Shown: piece after piece, positions 945 to 40,887 of the stretch
Layout of the letters: each line of letters starts with the position of its first letter
Position numbering within the stretch: the first letter of the stretch is position 1
Virus record (IMG/VR): IMGVR_UViG_3300047552_000224
Span: 1 to 41,334 of that record
Length of the DNA stretch: 41,334 nt
From: a virus
Reading direction: 5' to 3' (one strand)
Notes under the pieces: generated by a model
Seen by the model: only the letters and a program-made list of their open reading frames with translations
What the model was told of the DNA's origin: nothing
Database searches by the model: none
Position numbers and translations under genes: made by a program

Positions 945-981
945 GACTGGTGCTTCCAGTCCATCGGGTTGTAAAAGAGCG
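945..981 (-). promoter_or_regulatory. nut-like antitermination site (boxA + boxB)
   Basis: On the leftward transcript, CGCTCTTTTACA (981-970) closely resembles the boxA consensus. Eight bases later comes a hairpin GACTGG-AAGCA-CCAGTC (961-945), with a 6 bp stem and 5-base loop. This order, spacing and loop size are those of lambda nutL. It lies about 100 bases after the predicted PL start. A diverged counterpart is at 40908-40951. The cognate N-like protein was not identified. Confidence 0.65.
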
Positions 982-24320: not shown

Positions 24321-25745
24321 ATGGCATTAGATACTTTAATCACTGGCACTAATTTGGATGCTGGTGGGAATATTAAAGTCGCACTCACTCAGAGTAATGA
24401 TTATATGGGTGGTGTTCGCCTATTCTCTGAGAATGATGACGGAACTATTACCGGAACACCGTATTTAAAAGCACCTGAAACATCTACTGATTATCGGTTG
24501 CGTGTTGGTGTTGATACGGTTCTTCTGACAGATACGTTTAACGCTACGACGCAGAACTCTACTCTGTGGTCTTATACCGCAGCAACGCTAACGGCTACTC
24601 AGCCCGGTGGTTATCTCCAATTCGGCACGGTTCAGGGTACGGCATCTACGCACGGTGCGTTTATGCGTACCTATCAATACTTCCCGTTGGTTGGAACTTC
24701 TCCGCTAGCGGTTGAATTTACTGGCGGTGTATTCACTTCAACTTTAGTCGCTAATGAACTGTTCATTGCTGGATTGGGCCTGCCTTCTGCGGGTGGTACG
24801 CCTCCGACTGACGGGGTGTATTTCAAGCTATCTTCTGCCGGTCTGATTGGCGAACTGATGTACAACGGTGTATCAACTCAAACCGGCGTACTGATTGCCT
24901 CTTTGCCATTGGCTACGATGAAGAAATTCACCATTGTGGTTGCAGAGGGTGAAGTCGAGTTTTGGGTTGATGATGTTTTGGCGGGTGAGATTGAAGTGCC
25001 TGCTGCTAACGGTCAGCCGTTCATGGCGCACTCTCTTCCGGTTTTTATGCAGAAGTATTGCACTGGCGTAGTAGCAAATACCAATGTAATCCGAGTTACC
25101 GACGTAACCGTGTCTATGATGGACATTGCGACAAATAAGCCTTGGTCGCATCAGGTCGCAGGTATGGGGCAACACGCTCTTTTCGGACAGAACGGACACA
25201 CGCAGGGCAAAACAACGCTTTGGGCAAATAACACTGCTCCTACTGCGGTTGCTCTGACTAATACGGCTGCTGCATTCACTGGCTTGGGTGGCATTGTTGC
25301 GGTTCTTCCTACGCTCACAGCTAACAATGACGGCAAGTTAATCACATATCAGAATCCGACTCCAACGATCAACCTGACTGGTCGCAATCTGTATATCACT
25401 CGGGTTACGTTGAAAGGTGCTGTGTCTGTTGTCCTAGCCGGTGGGCCTGTGATTTACGCCTACGCTCTTGCAGTAGGTCATACCGCAACCTCACTAGCTA
25501 CGGCAGAAACCGCTTCATTTGCCTCGGGTACAACTCACGCACCACGAATCATGCCTTTGGGCATGGAGTCTTACGCAGCTACGGCTCCAGTAGGCACTTT
25601 GGGCGCAGGTGTTGATCTGAACTTTGATACTCCGATTGTCGTCCGTCCTGGTGAGTTTGTTGATGTTATCGCTAGAAACGTTGGCACGGTAACGACTACC
25701 GGAGCGATTACGTTTGTCATCTCTGTAGGTGGTTATTGGGAATGA
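24321..25745 (+). CDS. Virion structural protein, fibre or baseplate-like, 474 aa
   Basis: Neutral, beta-rich, Thr/Gly/Val-rich. A jelly-roll or LamG-like middle is suggested by KKFTIVVAEGEVEFWVDDVLAGEIEVP (about 205-230). TTGGAG is 5 bases before the ATG. It lies between two genes with tail- or ejection-type features. The exact family was not recognised. Confidence 0.6.
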   Translation: MALDTLITGTNLDAGGNIKVALTQSNDYMGGVRLFSENDDGTITGTPYLKAPETSTDYRLRVGVDTVLLTDTFNATTQNSTLWSYTAATLTATQPGGYLQFGTVQGTASTHGAFMRTYQYFPLVGTSPLAVEFTGGVFTSTLVANELFIAGLGLPSAGGTPPTDGVYFKLSSAGLIGELMYNGVSTQTGVLIASLPLATMKKFTIVVAEGEVEFWVDDVLAGEIEVPAANGQPFMAHSLPVFMQKYCTGVVANTNVIRVTDVTVSMMDIATNKPWSHQVAGMGQHALFGQNGHTQGKTTLWANNTAPTAVALTNTAAAFTGLGGIVAVLPTLTANNDGKLITYQNPTPTINLTGRNLYITRVTLKGAVSVVLAGGPVIYAYALAVGHTATSLATAETASFASGTTHAPRIMPLGMESYAATAPVGTLGAGVDLNFDTPIVVRPGEFVDVIARNVGTVTTTGAITFVISVGGYWE

Positions 25746-26143
25746 TCCTTACGCCTATCCACGCAAGGCACGTTGATTACGCATGGCGCGATGGTGCTAA
25801 TGCGCTCGGTGAGGCTACGGTTGAGGAATGCACGAACGACCAACTAAAGATGCTGATTGCTCGTGGTGAGCGTCAATTGCTCCGCATGGATAAAGACGGG
25901 AAAACGGTTGGTTGGGCTGTATTCCGTGTGGACATGCTGCCCAATATGAATGTCCTTTGGCTGACTAATCTATCGGCTCATAACGCACACTTTGAGCAGT
26001 TTTACGTGCTGCTTGAGCAGATCGCTAAAGACTTGGGATGCTCTCGGATTAGGTTCGCTGCATCGCCTTCACATCGTCGTTTGTACAAGATGAAGCTGAA
26101 AGCACAAGACGTATATCAAGTAATGGAAAAGGTGATTCAATGA
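25742..26143 (+). CDS. GNAT-fold virion protein, T7 gp13-like, 133 aa
   Basis: The pattern HARHVDYAWRDGANALGEA ... GWAVFRVDML ... AKDLGCSRIRFAASPSHRRLYKMKL resembles acetyltransferase-fold proteins coded just before ejection proteins in T7-like and related podoviruses. Enzyme activity is not certain, as the cofactor loop is not clear. Start ATG 25742 overlaps the previous stop; an ATG at 25736 is also possible. Confidence 0.65.
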   Translation: MILTPIHARHVDYAWRDGANALGEATVEECTNDQLKMLIARGERQLLRMDKDGKTVGWAVFRVDMLPNMNVLWLTNLSAHNAHFEQFYVLLEQIAKDLGCSRIRFAASPSHRRLYKMKLKAQDVYQVMEKVIQ

Positions 26144-26895
26144 ATTACGCACAACTAATGCATCAGGGCATTTCAAATCCTGCACACTCAATGGCTAATG
26201 TAGGTGGTGGCGGCTCTGGTGGGGGTGGTGGAACTTCTACGACTACGCAGAACATCCCTGAAGAACTTAAGCCGCTTGCAACTCGATACACGCAAGACGC
26301 TATTGCTCTAAGTAATCAGCAATACACGCCTTACACGCAGCAGCGTTACGCAGATTTGAATGGCGTACAGAATCAGGCAATGGGCTTAACTGCTCAACGT
26401 GCTTTGAATGGTTCGGCTACGATGGATAACGCTGAATCCAACCTTAACCAGATGATTGATGGTGGCTCTAATCCATACCTAGAATCAATGGTTAATCGCT
26501 CTCTGGATCAGGTTCAAGGCCGCGTAAATAGTCAGTTTGGCGGCAATAACTACGGTTCCACAGCGCATCAGCAAACGCTACAGACTGGTCTAGGTGACAC
26601 GGCTAACGCCATGTACGGTCAAGCCTACGACTCAGATCAGAATCGTCGGCTGAGTGCTATTAGTCAGGCTCCTACGTTCGGCAATCAAGCATATACAGAC
26701 GCTTCTCAGCTTGCCGGTGTTGGTCAGCAACTTCAAGACCAGAGTCAGCAAGGTTTGGACTTCAATTATCAGCAATTCACTGATGCTCAGAATGATCCCT
26801 ATCGCAAGCTAGCGGCGATGAGTGGCGTGTTTGGTTCTAACTTAGGTGGGTCTAGTACGACGCAATCCACCCAATCAGGTGGAGGTGGAAAATGA
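26140..26895 (+). CDS. Internal virion protein, Gln/Gly-rich, 251 aa
   Basis: A Gly-rich stretch near residues 22-31 precedes a helical, Gln-rich body (YTQDAIALSNQQYTPYTQQRY ... FDYQQF-type repeats). Proteins of this kind lie ahead of ejection proteins in podoviruses. No membrane segment. It overlaps both neighbours by four bases, so it is part of a compact ejection-gene cluster. Confidence 0.6.
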   Translation: MNYAQLMHQGISNPAHSMANVGGGGSGGGGGTSTTTQNIPEELKPLATRYTQDAIALSNQQYTPYTQQRYADLNGVQNQAMGLTAQRALNGSATMDNAESNLNQMIDGGSNPYLESMVNRSLDQVQGRVNSQFGGNNYGSTAHQQTLQTGLGDTANAMYGQAYDSDQNRRLSAISQAPTFGNQAYTDASQLAGVGQQLQDQSQQGLDFNYQQFTDAQNDPYRKLAAMSGVFGSNLGGSSTTQSTQSGGGGK

Positions 26896-27476
26896 GTTTA
26901 TTCGGTTCTCTCGCTTCAATTGCTGCGCCTATTGGTGGCTTTATGCTTGGCGGGCCTTTGGGTGCTGGTCTTGGTGGTGCGCTTGCTGGTGGTATGAATA
27001 ACCGCAAGAATCCGCTTGAGGGTGCATTGCTAGGTGGCGCATTGGGTTACGGCGGAGCGCAGATTCCAGGCCTTCTTGGTGGGGCTGATGCGGCTGTTGC
27101 TGCTCCGGTATCAACTGCTATGGGTACTAACGCAGCAGGCGCGTCTGTAGCGGCTAACTCTATGCCTTCTATGGCTACTGGTGCTGTAGAAATGGCCGAG
27201 GGTGCTGGCGCGGCTACTGGTGGCGGTGGATTGCTCGGTCAAGTTAGTTCAGTAGCTAAGCCTGCCGGTCAGGTAATGAGTGCGGCTAACTCAGCTAAAT
27301 CGCTAATGGCAGAGCCTCAGAAACAACTGCTAGGCCCGTCGCCTATCCAAGCACCAATGCCGAATAGCAATCTAGGCCAAATGGTTCAAGGTATGCAGCA
27401 ACAGCAAGCTAATCAAATGAACGTAGATTTTCAGCGCAGAGAAGCGCGTAAGAACCGCAATCGGGGGCTAATCTAA
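26892..27476 (+). CDS. Ejection-type protein with glycine-zipper region, 194 aa
   Basis: The first 60 residues are a Gly/Ala/Leu repeat (GGFMLGGPLGAGLGGALAGG), a glycine zipper able to insert in membranes. The end is Gln-rich, then basic (RREARKNRNRG). This fits a protein that helps form the DNA-ejection channel. Its stop overlaps the next start (TAATG). Confidence 0.6.
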   Translation: MSLFGSLASIAAPIGGFMLGGPLGAGLGGALAGGMNNRKNPLEGALLGGALGYGGAQIPGLLGGADAAVAAPVSTAMGTNAAGASVAANSMPSMATGAVEMAEGAGAATGGGGLLGQVSSVAKPAGQVMSAANSAKSLMAEPQKQLLGPSPIQAPMPNSNLGQMVQGMQQQQANQMNVDFQRREARKNRNRGLI

Positions 27477-28888
27477 TGGGACTGCTAGATGATGTTTTAA
27501 GCTTCGCTAAGACTCCGGAAGGCATCGGGGCAATGTCCGCTATTGCAGGTGGTCTAGCCGGTGCGCGTAAGAATGCGCCTTGGAATACGCTAGGTGCTGC
27601 TGCTACGGGTGGCTTGATGGGCTATTCAAACGCTCAAGATTTCAAGATGAAATCAGATTACAAAACCATGCAAGAACAGCTAATGCAGGCTCAAATTGAG
27701 CAAGCGAAGCGCAAGCAGAGTTTGATTGAGCAACTTACTGGAACTGGTCAGTCGGTTCAAAACAACGCGCTTACTGCTCTTGGTCATGGTTCTGCTGTTG
27801 GTGATGTTGGCCCTACAGTAACCAATGCAGATCGTATTGGGTCAATTCCTGCTCAACCTGCTCAATCTCCGTTTGGGAAACTTGACCGTCAAGCTGCTTT
27901 GTACGACCTTGCACTGAACGATGGAAAGAACATTGGTCAGTGGACGCACGAAGTAACCAAGCCACAGATGGAAGTTCATAACGGCTACGCTTACGACAAG
28001 AACAAGGTTCAGTCAGGATTCTTGCCTGGGATTAACGTATCTCAGAACGGTCAAGCTACTGTTACCGGAGTCGGGCCTGATGGTGCTCCGGTTGTTTATT
28101 CTCCTCCTGGTGCTTTGGCCACTTATTCTGCTTACCAACGCGCAGGAGAGGCAGCAAAGGCAGGATTTGATACGCAGGAAGTTACAACTCCAGACGGAAA
28201 GAAGGTTCTTACAACTCGCGGCAATGTGGTTAATCGAATTACTAATGCAACTAATCCGAGTTTTCCTAGAGTTTCCCCAGATGTTCAGGCAGGCCGTGAT
28301 GTTGATCGCAAGGAAATTGTTCGCCAGGAGTTGGCTTCTAATCCAAATGATCCGGCTTTGAGGAAAGAGGCTCAGAATTTAGGTATTGAGATTCAAGGTG
28401 AGACAAGCAAACAAAGGTCTGTAGCTGTAGCAAAGCTTGACGAAAAGGCGGCGCAAACCGCAGCAGAGCAAGCCCAAGGTCAGCAGAACCTACTCAACAC
28501 GCTTGACATGATTGATTCTAGACTCAAAGATAAAAACATGGTTCTTGGAAGTTCTCCTGCTGATCGTGCAAGGATGAATGCCCATGAATATGGATTGCAG
28601 TCTAAAGCGACAATCAACACCGCACGAATTAGAGAACTTGGCCAGCAACTTGTTTTGGCTCGTGGCTCTCTCGGGGCAGGCGTGTCTAAAGAGGATGCGG
28701 TTCGATACGATGCTGCGGCTGGTCGATTCTCTGATCCAAAGTCATACGACGATATGGTTGATGCGGTTAAGACAATGCGCGAAATAGCCAATACTTACAT
28801 CAAACAATCTGATGATGCACGAACTGTTCTTGAAACGGGGAAACGCTCAACGGTTGGTTCTGGTGGTTGGTCTGCGGTGCGGAGGTAA
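27476..28888 (+). CDS. Internal virion/ejection protein, 470 aa
   Basis: The Gly/Ala-rich start (GAMSAIAGGLAGARKN) resembles the previous gene's zipper. A Gln/Lys-rich helix (TMQEQLMQAQIEQAKRK) and a long mixed body follow, with a helical C-terminus (ELGQQLVLARGSLGAGVSK). No catalytic motif seen. Probably ejected into the periplasm or cytoplasm with the genome. Confidence 0.6.
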   Translation: MGLLDDVLSFAKTPEGIGAMSAIAGGLAGARKNAPWNTLGAAATGGLMGYSNAQDFKMKSDYKTMQEQLMQAQIEQAKRKQSLIEQLTGTGQSVQNNALTALGHGSAVGDVGPTVTNADRIGSIPAQPAQSPFGKLDRQAALYDLALNDGKNIGQWTHEVTKPQMEVHNGYAYDKNKVQSGFLPGINVSQNGQATVTGVGPDGAPVVYSPPGALATYSAYQRAGEAAKAGFDTQEVTTPDGKKVLTTRGNVVNRITNATNPSFPRVSPDVQAGRDVDRKEIVRQELASNPNDPALRKEAQNLGIEIQGETSKQRSVAVAKLDEKAAQTAAEQAQGQQNLLNTLDMIDSRLKDKNMVLGSSPADRARMNAHEYGLQSKATINTARIRELGQQLVLARGSLGAGVSKEDAVRYDAAAGRFSDPKSYDDMVDAVKTMREIANTYIKQSDDARTVLETGKRSTVGSGGWSAVRR

Positions 28889-28890
28889 GA

Positions 28891-30465
28891 ATGCCTAAAT
28901 TCACAATCACATCTCCTGATGGTCAGACTTTTGACGTTAATGCCCCTGAAGGTTCTTCAGAGTCTGATGCTATTGAGTACGTTCAAAAGAACTTTTACAA
29001 GCCTAAAGAAGTAAAACAACAAACCATTGATCCGACTGAAGGTATGACAGGGATGCAGAAATTCCTAGCCGGTACAGGAAAGGCAATGGTTGATATTGGC
29101 CGTGGAGCAGGTCAATTGGTTGGTCTTGTAGATCAGAAGGATATTGACGAGTCAAAACGCCTTGATGCTCCTTTGATGAATACTGGCGCAGGTACAGCTG
29201 GAAATGTTGTTGGCAACATCGCTACGGCACTTCCCGCAATGTTTGTCCCTGGTGCTAATACTGTCTTAGGAGCAAGTGCTGCCGGTGGTGTGCTTGGTGC
29301 GCTTCAGCCTGTTGCATCTGGCGATAGTCGGATGACTAATACGGTTATTGGTGGCGTGGCAGGTGGAGCAGGGCAGGGCATCGCTAATGCGGTCGGTCGC
29401 GCTGTTCAGCCTGTGCGTTCTACTCTGCAAGGTCAGGATGCTACGCTAGCGGAAAAGGCAAGGCGGTTTATGCCATTGAATGCGGCGCAGGAAACAGGTT
29501 CTAAGCCTTTGCGCTGGATTGATTCTGCACTGGATAACCTTCCATTCTCTGCTGACAAACAAGCTGCGCAGAAACTTGCTCAACGCGAAGCATGGCAAAG
29601 TCAGCTTTTGTCTAAAGCTGGCGAGAATGCTAACGCAGCAACTCCTGAGGTTTTAGGTTCTGCTTATAAGCGCCTTGGAGATCAATTCAAAGATATATCA
29701 GCTAGAAACACAGTAACCCTAGGAAATGACTTTATTAATTCAATTGCAAATATTGATGCATCAGTAACCCCGTTTTCTAAGGGAGTTAGTGAGGTTGTTG
29801 ATAAAGCACTTGATCTAGCATCAAAAGGTCAATTGTCTGGCAAGGAATACCAAAGCGTAAGATCAAGTTTAACCATGCAGGCAAAGAGTGCATGGCAGTC
29901 AAACGCTGAACTTGGTCAAGCGTTAAAAACATTGCGTCAATCATTAGACGATGCTGCTAACGCCTCAATATCAGCAGAAGATAAGCAGGCTTGGGGATTG
30001 GTTAGGGAGCAATACAAGAACCTTAAATCAATTACCAAAGCAACAGACTCAACAACAGGAATGATTAGCCCAAATAAGTTTGCAAGCGAACTAGATAGGG
30101 TTAATCCTCAAGGAATGAAATTTGGTTACGGCAATCAGGAAGTTCCAGACCTTGCAAGAATTGGAAAACGATTTGTTGCAGAAACACTTCCTGACTCTGG
30201 TTCTGCTCAACGCTCTTGGTACATGAACGCTTTGCAGAATCCAACTACCGGACTCGGTTTGGGAAGTGTTGCAGGGTTCTTAACTGGCGGGCCTGTTGGT
30301 GCTGTTGGCGGTGCTGCTTTAGGTGCTGCCACTCCTCTTGCTGTGCAAAAGGCTCTATGGTCTGATAGTGGTAAAAAGTATCTTTCAAAAGGGCTTCTTG
30401 ATGCAGCAAAGATTGAGCGAATTGCGCCCTATTCAAACGCAGCAACAGTTGGATTGATTAACTGA
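28891..30465 (+). CDS. Large ejection/internal protein, 524 aa
   Basis: Start set at ATG 28891, with GGAGG 5 bases upstream. The N-terminal ubiquitin-like segment (KFTITSPDGQTFDVNAPEGSSE) is common in podovirus internal proteins. Two hydrophobic Gly/Ala clusters (about 90-170 and 455-490) could cross membranes. The middle is helical and charged. Likely the largest of the ejected proteins. The gene end converges on a minus-strand gene at 30458. Confidence 0.65.
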   Translation: MPKFTITSPDGQTFDVNAPEGSSESDAIEYVQKNFYKPKEVKQQTIDPTEGMTGMQKFLAGTGKAMVDIGRGAGQLVGLVDQKDIDESKRLDAPLMNTGAGTAGNVVGNIATALPAMFVPGANTVLGASAAGGVLGALQPVASGDSRMTNTVIGGVAGGAGQGIANAVGRAVQPVRSTLQGQDATLAEKARRFMPLNAAQETGSKPLRWIDSALDNLPFSADKQAAQKLAQREAWQSQLLSKAGENANAATPEVLGSAYKRLGDQFKDISARNTVTLGNDFINSIANIDASVTPFSKGVSEVVDKALDLASKGQLSGKEYQSVRSSLTMQAKSAWQSNAELGQALKTLRQSLDDAANASISAEDKQAWGLVREQYKNLKSITKATDSTTGMISPNKFASELDRVNPQGMKFGYGNQEVPDLARIGKRFVAETLPDSGSAQRSWYMNALQNPTTGLGLGSVAGFLTGGPVGAVGGAALGAATPLAVQKALWSDSGKKYLSKGLLDAAKIERIAPYSNAATVGLIN

Positions 30466-30604
30466 TTTTTTTAAACAGAATCCTTTTAATCTTGCCTTCT
30501 GGAATGTATTTTTTTGCTAGCAAGGTTAAAGGGATAACGATTAAGCCAAATATTATCAAGACTACAAATGGCTTTAGTATTAGTGCGATAACTGTAGTGG
30601 TCAT
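30458..30604 (-). CDS. Antisense small membrane protein, 48 aa
   Basis: Reads leftward inside the rightward late operon. AAGGA lies 7 bases before the ATG at 30604. The protein begins MTTTVIALILKPFVVLIIFG, has a long membrane segment (about 4-32), then a strongly basic tail (KKYIPEGKIKRILFKKIS). The last 8 bases overlap the end of the 524-residue gene. The signals and membrane pattern suggest a real moron-type gene, perhaps for superinfection exclusion or lysis control; no family recognised. Confidence 0.55.
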   Translation of the reverse strand: MTTTVIALILKPFVVLIIFGLIVIPLTLLAKKYIPEGKIKRILFKKIS

Positions 30605-30627
30605 ATAATATCCTTATTAACTCTTAA

Positions 30628-30645
30628 TGCCGTGAGGCACTGGAG
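30628..30645 (+). promoter_or_regulatory. Late-gene 5' hairpin (copy 5)
   Basis: TGCC-GTGA-GGCA followed at once by CTGGAG, 6 bases before the ATG at 30652. The clearest copy of the five-member family. Confidence 0.5.
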
Positions 30646-30651
30646 AACACA

Positions 30652-31254
30652 ATGGCAGTCCCAACCTCGGTCAGTGACCTAGACGCAGTAGCAGCAAATA
30701 ATTCACCATCAGGCTCAGAGCCTATTGGTACGAACCTCGATAATTACCTACGCGCTCATGCGGCGATTATCAAGCAGGTTTCTAACTCTATTCCATCCAC
30801 TACATACCCATCTGCGGGCGTTGTTAAATCAACTGGCTCTGCATGGGCTACTGCTGTTGCTGGAACGGATTACCTTGCGCCTGCTGCTATTGGCTCAACG
30901 GTTCAAGCATACGACGCTCAACTGTTTTCAAACATTCCGCAGAACTCAAAGAGCGCAGCATATACGCTAGTTCTAACGGATGCACAGAAGCATATTCTTC
31001 ATCCGTCTGCTGATACAACTGCTCGCATTTTTACTATACCTGCCAATAGTTCTGTGGCCTATCCAGTCGGAACGGCTATTACGTTCATTAACCAGAATGG
31101 TGCAGGCGTAATCACAATCGCTATTACTACTGACACGATGCGCCTTGCTGGTGCAGGCACTACGGGTTCAAGGACACTAGCTGCTAATGGCATTGCTACT
31201 GCTGTAAAGATTACATCTACCGAATGGATTATTTCTGGAACGGGACTTAGCTGA
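30652..31254 (+). CDS. Tail-fibre-type protein, 200 aa
   Basis: The N-terminal VSDLDAVAANNSPSGSEPIGTNLDNYLRAHAAIIKQV is typical of podovirus tail-fibre attachment domains. The C-terminal beta domain (FTIPANSSVAYPVGTAITFINQNGAG ... TEWIISG) is a common fibre-tip module. Likely takes part in host attachment. Its stop overlaps the next start (TGATG). Confidence 0.7.
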   Translation: MAVPTSVSDLDAVAANNSPSGSEPIGTNLDNYLRAHAAIIKQVSNSIPSTTYPSAGVVKSTGSAWATAVAGTDYLAPAAIGSTVQAYDAQLFSNIPQNSKSAAYTLVLTDAQKHILHPSADTTARIFTIPANSSVAYPVGTAITFINQNGAGVITIAITTDTMRLAGAGTTGSRTLAANGIATAVKITSTEWIISGTGLS

Positions 31255-31928
31255 TGAGCGCAGTTATGCAGATGGTTCTATCTAGTAGCGCGTCTTTTGG
31301 TGTTGGTGGAACATGGTCTTTTGTAGGCCAATCAACAGCCGCCACTGGTAGCAATCCAACGATCACATTACCTGTCGGTATTGCTTCTGGCGACTTGATC
31401 TTAATATCAGTTTCTGCGTCAATAATGACAACAGCAACAGCGTCAGGCTATTCTGTTGCTTACCAAAACTACAACAACGGCGCATTTGATACGGATGCTG
31501 TGCTTCTTTATAAAGTTGCGTCAGGAACAGAAGGCGGCACAGGCGTTAGCGTCACAACTGATGCAATTATTGAGGGTTCTAGTGCTGCAACTGTGTATCG
31601 TCCTAGCGGGACAATAACTCTTGGCCCTGTTTCTGGGTCAGAAATTGATGGTAATCCATCTATAACAAACCCATCTCTAACAATAGAGAAAGATGCACTA
31701 ATTATTGTGTTTAACGCTTTTAGGCGAGGAACAAGCACCGGAAGCGTCGTAATTGCTCCATCTGGAGTTACAGCTAGGCACAATCTTTCTAGTGGTGTTA
31801 GTTACGCTGGATTCTGGCTAGGTGAGGTATATGCAGAAAGCACTCCGACTACAGAGTTTTCATCAACCATGAATAGTGCTGTAAATCTTGAAGTTGTTGC
31901 TGTTACAGCGGCGTTTTACTCTAGTTAA
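31254..31928 (+). CDS. Virion protein, probable fibre component, 224 aa
   Basis: Beta-rich and low in charge (WSFVGQSTAATGSNPTITLPVGIASGDLILISVSAS). The pattern is seen in phage fibre or adhesion proteins and resembles surface-protein repeats. It follows directly from the fibre gene. No further assignment possible. Confidence 0.6.
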   Translation: MSAVMQMVLSSSASFGVGGTWSFVGQSTAATGSNPTITLPVGIASGDLILISVSASIMTTATASGYSVAYQNYNNGAFDTDAVLLYKVASGTEGGTGVSVTTDAIIEGSSAATVYRPSGTITLGPVSGSEIDGNPSITNPSLTIEKDALIIVFNAFRRGTSTGSVVIAPSGVTARHNLSSGVSYAGFWLGEVYAESTPTTEFSSTMNSAVNLEVVAVTAAFYSS

Positions 31929-31942
31929 AAACTGGTGGTCTA

Positions 31943-32224
31943 ATGAATACAGAACTTGCACTCTTCGCTCTGTTTGTCGCGCTCCAACTGGCAGACATCT
32001 GGACAACGCTTCGCTTCCTGAAGAACAAGACGGGCCATGAAGCCAACCCGGTCATGGCTTACCTATTTGAGAAGTTTGGCGTTATCCAGTCGCTCTGCGT
32101 GGTCAAGTCTGCTGCCGTTGCGATAGCGTGGTTTCTTCAGACGGAGATCATGGTCATTGGTGTTTTGTGCGCCTTTTATGCGTACATTGCTATCAACAAT
32201 TACCGCATCGGGTCTGGAAAATAG
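31943..32224 (+). CDS. DUF5658-like small membrane protein, 93 aa
   Basis: Three hydrophobic segments (about 4-20, 44-65 and 68-85) and the motif QLADIWTTLRFLKNKTGHEANPVMAYL are like DUF5658 membrane proteins. Codon use is more GC-rich than in the fibre genes just before it. It is the last rightward gene. Function unknown. Confidence 0.6.
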   Translation: MNTELALFALFVALQLADIWTTLRFLKNKTGHEANPVMAYLFEKFGVIQSLCVVKSAAVAIAWFLQTEIMVIGVLCAFYAYIAINNYRIGSGK

Positions 32225-32444
32225 TTTCTAAAACTACGCTTTGCTTCATTGATTCTTAAGGGTTATTAGTCTGCGCTCTAGTGTTTAAGTATTAGAAACG
32301 CAGATTGATAACTCTTTTGTTTTCATGTGTTTAGTCGCTAGTTGTTGGAAGTATGCATGCTAATTCAGTGATTCTTGTAAAGCCTTGTGCCGCAATGGTT
32401 TGGCTTTGCCAATAGCCTCCTGAATTAGATGCAATCCAATACTC
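32225..32444. other. Intergenic region, probable attP
   Basis: 220 bases between the end of the rightward late genes and the 3' end of the leftward integrase gene, a usual place for attP. It contains a perfect 9-base inverted pair CTAATTCAG/CTGAATTAG (about 32360 and 32411) enclosing an AAAGCC/GGCTTT hairpin that could end convergent transcripts, and a TAGTTT/AAACTA stem right after the membrane gene. No tRNA fragment or obvious core was seen, so the crossover site is not assigned. Confidence 0.4.
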
Positions 32445-33407
32445 TCAGGCTTTTTTCTTCAATGTCATAGCAGTCGCCACTGGTGTTTCGCGGCTTCTGA
32501 GATACCTGTTATGGCTTGATTCAGACTTGTGACCTAGTAGGACTTTGCTGTCTACGCTATCCCGTTGAGCATCAGTAGCTGCCTTTGCTCTCAAGTCATG
32601 GACATGTGCATCTTCTACGCCAGCATCAAGACAAGCCTTGCGCCAATGCCTCATAACCGTGTCGTAATTGAGTTTAGAGCCGTTTCTGTTGTGGAGTAGC
32701 GTGATTCCTTTAACGGACTGATGAATCGCTTTAGCGGCCTTTACAGTGCGCTCTAGGTCAGTGTTCCAAGCCACAATCATCCGGTGCTTAGTTTTCTGCT
32801 GTTTGAACGCAATGCCTTCATCCGTTAAGTCAGAGTATTTGATAGCCATTACGTCGCTGATTCGCTGGCCTGTCATGTAGCACAAATCCATGATGATCCT
32901 GAGTTGTGAATCTGCATATTTGTGTATGGCGGCATACTCTGAATCTGTGATGTACCTATCCCTAGCCACGGTTTTCATTGGCTTTGTATCTCTGGCGACG
33001 TTTCTATCTACTAGATCGTCAAAGATTGCCATATCCAGCGCACCAATCAGAACTGCTCTCATAACGTTAGCTGATCCTGGCTTGTCCTTGTAATACCTTT
33101 GGACTTCCATGATTGATTTGGCTGTGACTTGGGATGGTTCAAACTCAGCGAATATCTTGGATAGGTGGTTTTTCGCCACCTTGTACGATTTAATCGTGTT
33201 ATCCGCTAGGGTGAGGCTGGCTATGTATCGCTCTAAGAGTGCAGGCATCTTAGAAGTGGGCGCAGATAGCTTTTTGGCGTAGTTCTTTAGTGCTGTAGGT
33301 AAATCTTTGCCTATCTGTTCCCACTTGTTCTGTTTGACGTAATAGTACGCACCGTTACGCAGAAAAACGCAAGGTGGGAGGTGCTTGTCCTTCTTTCTTG
33401 GACGCAT
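32445..33407 (-). CDS. int: Tyrosine integrase, 320 aa
   Basis: Site-specific recombinase for integration and excision. Catalytic residues are visible: Arg182 (TGQRISDVM), Lys in KQQKTKHR (about 205), His270-x-x-Arg273 (HDLRAKA), His293 (LGHKSE) and Tyr302 (NRYLRS). A SAM-like core-binding region covers about 50-140. It is the last gene of the leftward operon and overlaps the DUF4224 gene, suggesting coupling. Confidence 0.93.
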   Translation of the reverse strand: MRPRKKDKHLPPCVFLRNGAYYYVKQNKWEQIGKDLPTALKNYAKKLSAPTSKMPALLERYIASLTLADNTIKSYKVAKNHLSKIFAEFEPSQVTAKSIMEVQRYYKDKPGSANVMRAVLIGALDMAIFDDLVDRNVARDTKPMKTVARDRYITDSEYAAIHKYADSQLRIIMDLCYMTGQRISDVMAIKYSDLTDEGIAFKQQKTKHRMIVAWNTDLERTVKAAKAIHQSVKGITLLHNRNGSKLNYDTVMRHWRKACLDAGVEDAHVHDLRAKAATDAQRDSVDSKVLLGHKSESSHNRYLRSRETPVATAMTLKKKA

Positions 33408-33549
33408 GATGTAAATCCTCCTGTAAGACCACTATAGAACCATCACGGCGACGACGAAAGGGAATCTGCATTGCTATCAACTCTCTCGCCTGGCTCGTTG
33501 CTTTCTTTCTGTTCGTTAGTTCTTGTATCTGTTCGCTGTTGAGAATCAT
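33355..33549 (-). CDS. DUF4224-like small protein, 64 aa
   Basis: Reads MILNSEQIQELTNRKKATSQ, then LIAMQIPFRRRRDGSIVVLQEDL, the DUF4224 pattern commonly found right before phage integrases. Possibly a DNA-binding helper or excisionase-like factor; that role is inferred from location. GGGAAG is 8 bases before ATG 33549. It overlaps the integrase start by 53 bases and the preceding gene by 107. Confidence 0.75.
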   Translation of the reverse strand: MILNSEQIQELTNRKKATSQARELIAMQIPFRRRRDGSIVVLQEDLHHASKKEGQAPPTLRFSA

Positions 33550-39515: not shown

Positions 39516-40169
39516 TTAGGCTTGTGCAGCAAATGAATCAGCGTTCTTAGCCTGATCCGCTTGTTTCTTAATCGCAGTACGCGTCTTGCTAGATACAAGA
39601 GTTAGCACCGCTCCTTTTTCTTCAGTCTGAAGATGTTTGTCTCGCAAGAACTTCAGAACGTCACCGCCGTCAGCAACTACTGCGTCAGCTTCCTCTGCAA
39701 TCTCTCGCAAGAACTTCTGTTCTTCTTCGTCGAACGATTCGACTAGGCCAGCCGCAGGAGTTACTTTCGTGCGCTTCTCTGGCTCTTTGTCGATTGGCTT
39801 ACTGGAGTCAAGCGCATCGTGTTCAACGATTTCAAGGGCCATCACATACAGGTATCGACGCTGATAAGTTTCTACCGCTCCAAGGTTCTGGATAGGGTGG
39901 CAACCTTTAAGTTGTGCGTCAGCCATAGGGCTAGTGAACATCACCCAATCTTCCGGTTTGTCACAGTCGAAGATTGTTAGCGTGGCGTGTTCTGCGCTGA
40001 ATTTCGTTGTGGCGCACAATCCAAACTCATGGAACAGTTCATTGATCGTTGGCAGGAAGTCACCTAGTTCAAAGTATTTGTACTTTGCAAAAGTGTTCTC
40101 GCCTGACTTCTTCATTGGCTTGCTCTGTAGTGCTACGCGGCAAGCGTTTAGCTTTTGGTAAATGTTCAT
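39516..40169 (-). CDS. erf: ERF-family single-strand annealing protein, complete, 217 aa
   Basis: Full copy of the gene cut at base 1. The N-terminal ERF core runs to about residue 140 (FAKYKYFELGDFLPTINELF, LGAVETYQRRYLYVMAL); the C-terminal part is charged. Three ATGs in a row occur (40175, 40172, 40169); the last matches the left copy. AGAAGGA lies just before. It anneals strands in recombination, with the SSB-like gene next in the operon. Confidence 0.9.
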   Translation of the reverse strand: MNIYQKLNACRVALQSKPMKKSGENTFAKYKYFELGDFLPTINELFHEFGLCATTKFSAEHATLTIFDCDKPEDWVMFTSPMADAQLKGCHPIQNLGAVETYQRRYLYVMALEIVEHDALDSSKPIDKEPEKRTKVTPAAGLVESFDEEEQKFLREIAEEADAVVADGGDVLKFLRDKHLQTEEKGAVLTLVSSKTRTAIKKQADQAKNADSFAAQA

Positions 40170-40171
40170 CA

Positions 40172-40312
40172 TCATTCCTTCTCAACGTAAAAGGTGGATT
40201 CAGGATAGTTTTCTGCGTTTTCTTCTATCCAGAAATTAGCGTGTCCTTCTGCTCTAAATTCACCTTGGCAAAATTCCTCGCCTGTTTCGGTAACCTGGAT
40301 TACGCGCCACAT
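40172..40312 (-). CDS. Small protein present only in the right copy, 46 aa
   Basis: Reads MWRVIQVTETGEEFCQGEFR, then ANFWIEENAENYPESTFYVE. It overlaps both neighbours (13 bases upstream; its TGA overlaps the ERF ATG). The left copy lacks it entirely, with the upstream gene joined straight to ERF. Function unknown. Confidence 0.6.
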   Translation of the reverse strand: MWRVIQVTETGEEFCQGEFRAEGHANFWIEENAENYPESTFYVEKE

Positions 40313-40485
40313 TCTTTAATCTCCTTGCGCCTCATGTCAGCAGCTACACGCATAAACTCTGCGGCTTCTTCCTGCTCTTGCATGTAACGCTCAAATTCAT
40401 AAGCCATCATTGCGGCTTCCATGTTGGAGGACGGATATTCCTCATCCTCGCAAGTCTGTTCAAACCATGCTCTGTCATTAGCCAT
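40300..40485 (-). CDS. Small acidic early protein, 61 aa (right copy)
   Basis: Homologue of 423-611, with changes such as EDEEYPSS for EDEEYATS and a different last few residues. AAGGAG lies 8 bases before ATG 40485. Same place behind the second PL. Function unknown. Confidence 0.7.
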   Translation of the reverse strand: MANDRAWFEQTCEDEEYPSSNMEAAMMAYEFERYMQEQEEAAEFMRVAADMRRKEIKECGA

Positions 40486-40546
40486 GATTGAACTCCTTGA
40501 CGAACCACGTTTGAAAATCACTGACTAGGTAGTTATCCGGTTTCAT
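40478..40546 (-). CDS. Small early peptide, 22 aa (right copy)
   Basis: Matches 604-672 except one residue, MKPDNYLVSDFQTWFVKEFN in this copy. GAGGTGATG precedes the ATG. Overlaps the next gene by 8 bases. Confidence 0.5.
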   Translation of the reverse strand: MKPDNYLVSDFQTWFVKEFNHG

Positions 40547-40550
40547 GTCA

Positions 40551-40887
40551 TCACCTCGCTATAGTTGTTAGTGACGGCTTACCCGTCAGCATCTGGTTAC
40601 GATCCAGCGCATTGGCAATTTCACGTTTGCCGTTGCCGGTTACTGCGGTGTCGCTGGTATAGGGCTTCTCGTTAGAACGTGCCTCATCCGCACAGCAATA
40701 CCCACCACATTGAAGCGGGCCGGTGCTGATCTCCGGCTTTCTCAGGGTTAATCAATTCGCTAATCACCACAAAACGCGATTGACTTACTGCGCATCAGCC
40801 TGCGCATTCCGCTTCAATGTGCAGCCTCGTTAGAAGCTGCTCGGCTCGCCTTCCTCTGCACTTGTGGGCAAATCCCATCACCTTCAT
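40551..40887 (-). pseudogene. Leader reading frame interrupted by inverted-repeat element
   Basis: The upstream part starts MKVMGFAHKCRGRRAEQLLT at 40887 and runs into the element, where it stops at 40795-40797. The downstream part is open as ADEARSNEKPYTSDTAVTGN, KREIANALDRNQM, to a stop at 40551-40553, with no canonical start. The left copy (694-904) lacks the element but carries a frameshift. It may once have been an Arg-containing early protein; this is uncertain. Confidence 0.3.
40706..40821. repeat. 116 bp element with 13-base perfect inverted ends
   Basis: CACATTGAAGCGG (40706-40718) and CCGCTTCAATGTG (40809-40821) are exact inverted copies. Inside are GCCGG/CCGGC, TCAATtCGC/GCGATTGA and a TGCGCA pair. 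The left end copy goes straight from CACCACAA to CAACCTCG at this spot, so it gives an empty site. Either a small stem-loop insertion or a structured RNA. Confidence 0.6.

Follow-up and report, generated by a model that had tools for sequence, protein, structure and literature searches.

The closest described counterparts of the leader considered here are the nut sites of lambda- and P22-type phages, the boxA of rRNA leaders, the put sites of phage HK022, and the small RNA sRNA-17 of E. coli K1. Lambda nutL, as read from its record, consists of CGCTCTTAAAAATTAA-GCCCT-GAAGA-AGGGC, with 16 nt from the start of boxA to the start of boxB; known N-boxB loops are of the GNRNA type. In rRNA leaders, boxA alone mainly counters Rho-dependent, not strong intrinsic, termination. 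In HK022, the putL site is located close after the PL promoter (PMC9378689). In E. coli K1 RS218, sRNA-17 is encoded at 4535226-4535418 (minus strand), in an intergenic region (4534659-4535810) of a prophage that resembles mEp460. The RNA has a length of 193 nt, was mapped with RACE and detected by Northern blotting, and is described as a single ArcA-modulated trans-acting sRNA (PMC7719688). The strongest effects reported for its deletion concern yfdP and yfdR, both directly downstream, which are upregulated by 6.6 log2 and 4.1 log2, respectively, and genes upregulated in this way are read as possible trans targets (PMC7719688).

We analyzed a window of 41,334 nt, the whole stretch of viral DNA under consideration, for which a first-pass annotation had proposed a nut site in the leader of the leftward early operon. 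A nut site comprises a boxA near CGCTCTTTA in the leader directly after PL and, at a fixed distance 3' of it, a boxB hairpin with a 5-7 bp stem and a loop of about 5 nt. Both are found close to the left end of the window, in what we denote leader A. Its promoter PL (1118-1090, minus strand, TTGACA-17-GATAAT) has 11 of 12 consensus matches and is the sole promoter-like site in positions 1-2600, as well as the best sigma-70 match of the region in a promoter scan. The boxA CGCTCTTTTACA (981-970, minus), read from the sequence, is located 100 nt downstream of PL, which confirms the proposed location in a PL leader. It is followed by an 8-nt gap, ACCCGATG (969-962), and by a hairpin (961-945, minus) that consists of the stem GACTGG (961-956), the loop AAGCA (955-951) and the stem CCAGTC (950-945), hence the succession of boxA, 8-base gap and 6 bp hairpin with 5-base loop is as originally described, on the minus strand. 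According to an ORF check and folding, the leader is an untranslated stretch of about 420 nt (1083-665, minus) without a recognizable N gene; it precedes the start of an erf-like gene (418-1, minus) that is truncated at the window end. On the other side of PL, the roughly 560 nt up to a CI-like gene (1175-1735, plus) contain no long ORF of a known family. Their plus strand (z = -2.9), unlike the minus strand (z = -0.8), has a more stable fold than shuffled sequences, possibly a further structured RNA.

The combination of boxA and hairpin is rare by chance. When the window is shuffled 300 times with an order-1 Markov model, NGCTCTTTWACA is found on average 0.067 times per shuffled window, and together with a hairpin (at least 6 Watson-Crick pairs, loop of 4-5 nt, at most 14 nt from boxA) about 0.003 times. 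A scan of the window and of 2.15 Mb from related phages and prophages with the same strict criterion returns 3 sites, compared to 1.3 in shuffled DNA: leader A, the nut site of record L171 that precedes an arginine-rich N-like gene, and a site in L055. The hairpin alone has a local folding energy of -7.5 kcal/mol and is absent from the minimum-energy fold of the full 419-nt leader, whose overall folding energy is ordinary compared to shuffles (z = -0.5).

A second leader, denoted leader B, is found at the right end of the window. It has a probable PL promoter (41074-41046, minus, TTGACA-17-TAATCT, identified by eye and with a weak -10 element), a boxA CACTCTTTAACA (40951-40940, minus), of which CTCTTTAACA is the rrn consensus, and a 4-bp hairpin GGCG-ATGTA-CGCC (40920-40908, minus). 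The first-pass annotation had already listed this boxA and the different hairpin; the gap between them amounts to 19 nt. Downstream follows a gene for an Erf-like ssDNA annealing protein (40175-39516, minus; phrog_155, E = 7.5e-28). The leader-plus-erf cassette is therefore present once at each window end, with 93% identity across some 400 nt that span leader and early genes. Each copy has its own promoter and operators, and the upper parts of the leaders diverge. The block GTTGAGTAACACC directly 5' of boxA (1000-988 in A, 40963-40951 in B, both minus) and boxA itself are common to both leaders, whereas the hairpins differ. The motif CTCTTTWACA has only two sites in the 41 kb window, one per PL leader, compared to 0.27 expected per shuffled window. 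In both leaders boxA is located within a long untranslated RNA, as boxA-only antitermination would need. At the place where leader A has about 10 nt, leader B contains a structured RNA module (40817-40710, minus), denoted R1 and described below.

Conservation of the hairpin could be assessed in leader B only, where an equivalent boxB is absent. Exact pattern searches with pieces of leader A in IMG/VR and a blastn search against phages returned no relatives, such that the evidence for conservation of leader A is limited to two copies within one contig. In a search for relatives of Erf in viral and genome contigs, those of the viral set have at most 54% identity, and the two leaders examined (L004, L005) are of a different kind. 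We note several further properties of the cassette. The two copies (1-900 and 39743-40709) may be either a real duplication or distinct immunity variants that the assembly brought together. In the untranslated leader, the stretch of about 100 nt just before the first gene is almost identical in A (665-780) and B (40555-40670, both minus) and ends in a hairpin whose sequence differs while the pairing is kept (GGCCG-GAAAGA-CGGTC and TGACGG-GTAAG-CCGTCA). The motif TTCTARCGAG occurs twice in each leader.

In lambda-type systems a nut site is accompanied by an N protein, which has an arginine-rich motif at its N-terminus and is encoded in the early region, and by a second nut site in the PR operon. 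PHROG scans of the early proteins identify Erf, SSB, Cro- and CI-like regulators, a helicase, NinB, NinG, a methylase and a dCTP deaminase, and no antitermination protein. A search of the whole record, which may be incomplete, has no match to the N family phrog_271, the ORFs in leaders A and B are not arginine-rich, and a scan of all ORFs for an arginine-rich motif near the start returns scattered out-of-frame ORFs and a single leftward ORF (34049-33741, minus) with the very arginine-rich start MLRRTTARSRRRNHKVTRRTSRS. The latter was considered as a candidate for N and is only noted here, since it belongs to no family and is the distal part of the leftward operon, past the terminator; it may be spurious or encode an RNA-binding protein. 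The earlier statement that no known N protein is seen is thus upheld. Likewise, there is no boxA-type nutR, as CTCTTTWACA does not occur in the window outside the two PL leaders, and no second nut site is seen between cro and the next gene of the right operon. The leftward operon does contain an intrinsic terminator, GCCACC..GGTGGCGTTTTTTT (38946-38928, minus, terminator scan), so that some form of antitermination would make sense.

Our favored reading, to which we assign a probability of roughly one half, is that the site represents the boxA component of an antitermination leader in the early region of a temperate phage, and that boxA and host Nus factors act on a long untranslated PL transcript. 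The nascent boxA RNA would bind NusB/S10, which together with NusA/NusG would render RNA polymerase resistant to termination; the polymerase would then traverse 400-550 nt of untranslated leader and continue into the erf operon. Several observations argue for this reading: the strong PL 100 nt upstream of a near-consensus boxA, the confinement of both CTCTTTWACA sites to PL leaders, the conservation of GTTGAGTAACACC and boxA despite different hairpins, the length of both untranslated leaders together with the intrinsic terminator within the operon, and the presence of boxA at the matching place in the R1-bearing records L128, L142, L157, L171 and L188. In L142 the boxA precedes a recognized N gene. 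Leader B retains boxA, but its hairpin has no more than 4 bp and a gap of 19 nt, so that boxA is what the two leaders have in common; the hairpin of leader A may be a boxB for an N-like protein, may have an accessory role or may be there by chance. Three points count against this reading. As noted for rRNA leaders, boxA alone is not expected to overcome strong intrinsic terminators, the hairpin is found at the same 20-nt distance as in the nut site of L142, which would be surprising if boxA were all that counted, and conservation is seen in two copies of one contig.

The same spacing is at the center of a more tentative alternative, namely that the hairpin is a genuine boxB for a phage antiterminator that is unrecognizable by sequence, and that this protein, together with Nus factors, would bring about processive read-through of the terminator at 38946-38928 and others. 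The site was initially reported to have the exact order and spacing of lambda nutL. The order holds, while the distance from the start of boxA to the hairpin is 20 nt, 4 nt more than in lambda, and equals that of the prophage-type nut site of L142 (TGCTCTTTAACAACATTGCA-GCGCT-GACAA-AGCGC). The boxB of L142 is presumably of the P22 type, and the gene that follows matches phrog_271 (9e-18). A similar spacing of 19 nt is found in L171, where the next gene is arginine-rich. This agreement, the order of boxA, 8-nt gap, 6-bp stem and 5-nt loop, whose combination is rare in shuffles, and the internal terminator that needs a remedy all speak for an N-type site. They are set against the three protein searches without an N-like gene, the missing nutR, the hairpin's absence from the global fold of leader A, the lack of a boxB at the matching place in leader B, and the loop AAGCA, which is not GNRNA and, as pointed out from the beginning, is unlike the known N-boxB loops. 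With no N-like gene, no nutR, a non-GNRNA loop and no matching boxB in leader B, a new antiterminator protein is only possible.

It is also conceivable, though unlikely, that a good boxA, for example a relic, happens to lie next to an unrelated hairpin and that no antitermination takes place. Conservation of the hairpin is not demonstrable, and functionless boxA-like words are common, with 169 observed versus 155 expected in 2 Mb of phage DNA. Chance does not readily account for the fact that both boxA copies of the window are in PL leaders, given the excess of CTCTTTWACA over shuffled windows.

The R1 module of leader B was missed by the first-pass annotation. It came to light in a search with leader B against annotated phages, in which phages of Pseudomonas, Klebsiella, E. 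coli, Erwinia and Acidovorax gave short near-perfect matches within leader regions that carry no annotation. The copy in leader B (about 108 nt, 87.3 bits, E = 2.4e-24, fold z = -3.6) consists of a closing stem, a hairpin GCGCA-GGCTGA-TGCGC, a variable part and a hairpin GCCGG-AGATCAGCA-CCGGC. It shares these features with the family, namely the closing stem, the hairpin with a GGCUGA loop, the variable part and the hairpin with a AGAUCAGCA loop. In the alignment, the architecture is a closing stem of mostly 6-13 bp, AAT, hairpin 1, a middle part of 26-163 nt, hairpin 2 and the closing strand. The closing stem is found at an identical offset in 73 of 78 distinct copies, with a mean of 7.8 bp compared to 4.4 bp with shuffled partners, and 8 of its 9 pairs change on both sides in an alignment of 42 sequences. 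For the whole structure, the same alignment has 100 cells with changes on both sides, whereas shuffling gives 34.5 and sliding the structure gives 14-30. As the 42 sequences were selected by their first hairpin, the two hairpins were tested on another sample: among 36 distinct matches to the covariance model, including divergent ones and aligned by fitting to the model, two-sided changes are found in 15 of 19 pairs, and all three helices are involved. Stem variants include GCACA/TGTGC and GTCGG/CCGAC in P1, ACGCA/TGCGT in CUS-3 and GCGGA/TCCGC in L266. The two loops are complementary (GCUGA/UCAGC) and almost invariant, with 99% of cells paired. In a single copy, in L195 (7777-7672), both loops are altered, to GGUGA and UCACC, such that their complementarity is preserved. 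Judged from these sequences, the loops are likely to form a kissing pair, which we put forward as a hypothesis.

The module has no match among the 4227 models of Rfam 15, and its core sequences were not found in the papers searched. Identity with the skipping-rope RNA was discarded, as RF02924 has no match in records that contain R1. A coding origin (ATGAATGCGCAGGCTGATGCGCAG, MNAQADAQ) was likewise rejected, since length differences in the middle part are not multiples of three and the flanking strands form a covarying stem. Leader A is no degenerate R1, as the R1 model identifies leader B only.

R1 is widespread in viruses of Gram-negative bacteria. An exact 19-mer occurs in at least 120 stretches of IMG/VR. 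Among 5,426 complete E. coli genomes, 881 contain a match to at least 80% of a 51-nt probe. With a 55-nt probe and the same coverage threshold, 138 of 50,697 phage records are positive, or 266 if matches of any extent are counted, and so are 331 of 72,556 plasmids. Most of these plasmids are from E. coli, have a size of about 90-115 kb and look like P1-type phage-plasmids. In an even sample of 149 further genomes from the phylum to which a Pseudomonas genome belongs, three have matches above 50 bits. The hosts of R1 phages include Escherichia, Klebsiella, Pseudomonas, Aeromonas, Erwinia and Acidovorax. In early leaders, R1 is located 33 nt after GGTCTTTAACAA in Acidovorax phage AP1, between boxA or nut and the first gene in L142 (N-like) and L157 (arginine-rich), and between cI and yfdP in E. 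coli prophages. In the late leaders of PAJU2, Klebsiella phage 6, CUS-3 and phiEt88, it follows Q. Further copies are found near tRNA genes (phiEt88, UPM 2146, ST4, Bas80, P1); 17 of 126 copies are within 1 kb of a tRNA gene compared to 8 expected, an association that is suggestive only. A strict link to boxA was rejected, with a boxA at most 500 nt upstream in only about 7 of 128 copies. L157 shares the word GGCTTTGGGGTGTG with the spacer between nutL and N of lambda and carries R1 after it, therefore R1 behaves like an insertable cassette.

Many late copies of R1 directly follow another hairpin, ACAACAGGTAAGAGCAC...GTGCTCTTTCCGTTGT. We also note (C)ACAACAGGTAAGRG...YCTTWCCGTTGT(G), a second hairpin that recurs immediately 5' of R1 copies (L257 2430-2510; L131 2330-2415), which is repeated several times in P1 (L256 1350-2900, dmt-plp region) and in some copies contains a T-arm-like GGGTTCGAATCCC. 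In yfdP-type prophages, an intrinsic terminator is located directly 3' of R1 (L254 4130-4190; L279 30980-30920), and the leader of R1 plus terminator looks like an attenuator preceding yfdP.

This arrangement coincides with the reported position of sRNA-17. With phage mEp460 as a stand-in, R1 is located at 31113-30979 and the following intrinsic terminator ends near 30921. The stretch from 31113 to 30921 comprises 193 nt, the length of sRNA-17. The downstream distances agree (4535226-4534659 = 567, as is 30921 minus 30354, the start of the YfdQ gene), and the upstream distances differ by one nucleotide (4535810-4535418 = 392 compared to 393 for 31506, the end of the repressor gene, minus 31113). 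By this coordinate arithmetic, sRNA-17 would be R1 plus the terminator and would begin, at its 5' end, with the closing stem, and the simplest reading of the rise of yfdP and yfdR is a cis effect of removing leader and terminator. We consider it quite likely that the RNA of leader B belongs to an unnamed, phage-wide family of structured leader RNAs that includes sRNA-17, with the effects on yfdP and yfdR most simply explained in cis. With similar confidence, we regard the family as defined by a closing stem, two near-invariant and probably kissing loops, and a variable middle, in early and late leaders and flanking tRNA genes; its sites, again quite likely, are between nutL and N in some phages, between PL and terminator in yfdP-type prophages, and behind Q.

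A put-like cis RNA, one that would bind RNA polymerase and need neither N nor Nus factors, is very improbable: the phage is N-less with a structured leader, and in the E. coli prophage L254 R1 begins, like putL, within a few tens of nt of PL with no boxA seen, but the R1 model has no match in the HK022 early region 25500-33500, so R1 is not put, leader A (compared with this region by eye) has no excess of folding, and R1 is found, too, behind Q in late leaders and beside tRNA genes in virulent phages.

Taken alone, the nut-like site is of modest interest, as an early boxA leader in an N-less phage and a case for whether boxA suffices. It is outweighed by R1 in the sister leader, a widespread RNA with two nearly invariant loops and no Rfam family. 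One of its copies, sRNA-17, has a published knock-out phenotype, interpreted as trans-regulation, and recognition of the family makes its function directly testable.

Compared to the lambda and P22 nut sites, leader A has in common the position just after PL, the boxA, the 3' hairpin with a 5-nt loop and the terminators downstream; unlike them, its phage has no N gene found and no nutR, the loop is AAGCA, and leader B has no boxB. Of the designation as a lambda-type nut site, the boxA leader, the PL promoter, the nut-like order and the terminator therefore stand, whereas the assignment to the N type is so far not supported. As in the boxA of rRNA leaders (NusB-S10-SuhB), boxA is located in a long untranslated leader, here that of a phage early operon. 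The putL/putR sites of HK022 are likewise cis elements, with putL in the PL leader of an N-less phage, whereas the leader described here has a boxA. The skipping-rope RNA (RF02924) is, according to the literature, likewise a phage-associated structured RNA, distinct from R1 in that it has no match in R1 records. Finally, sRNA-17 was published as one trans-acting RNA and not connected with other copies of R1 (PMC7719688), whereas R1 as described here is a family across phages of many hosts.
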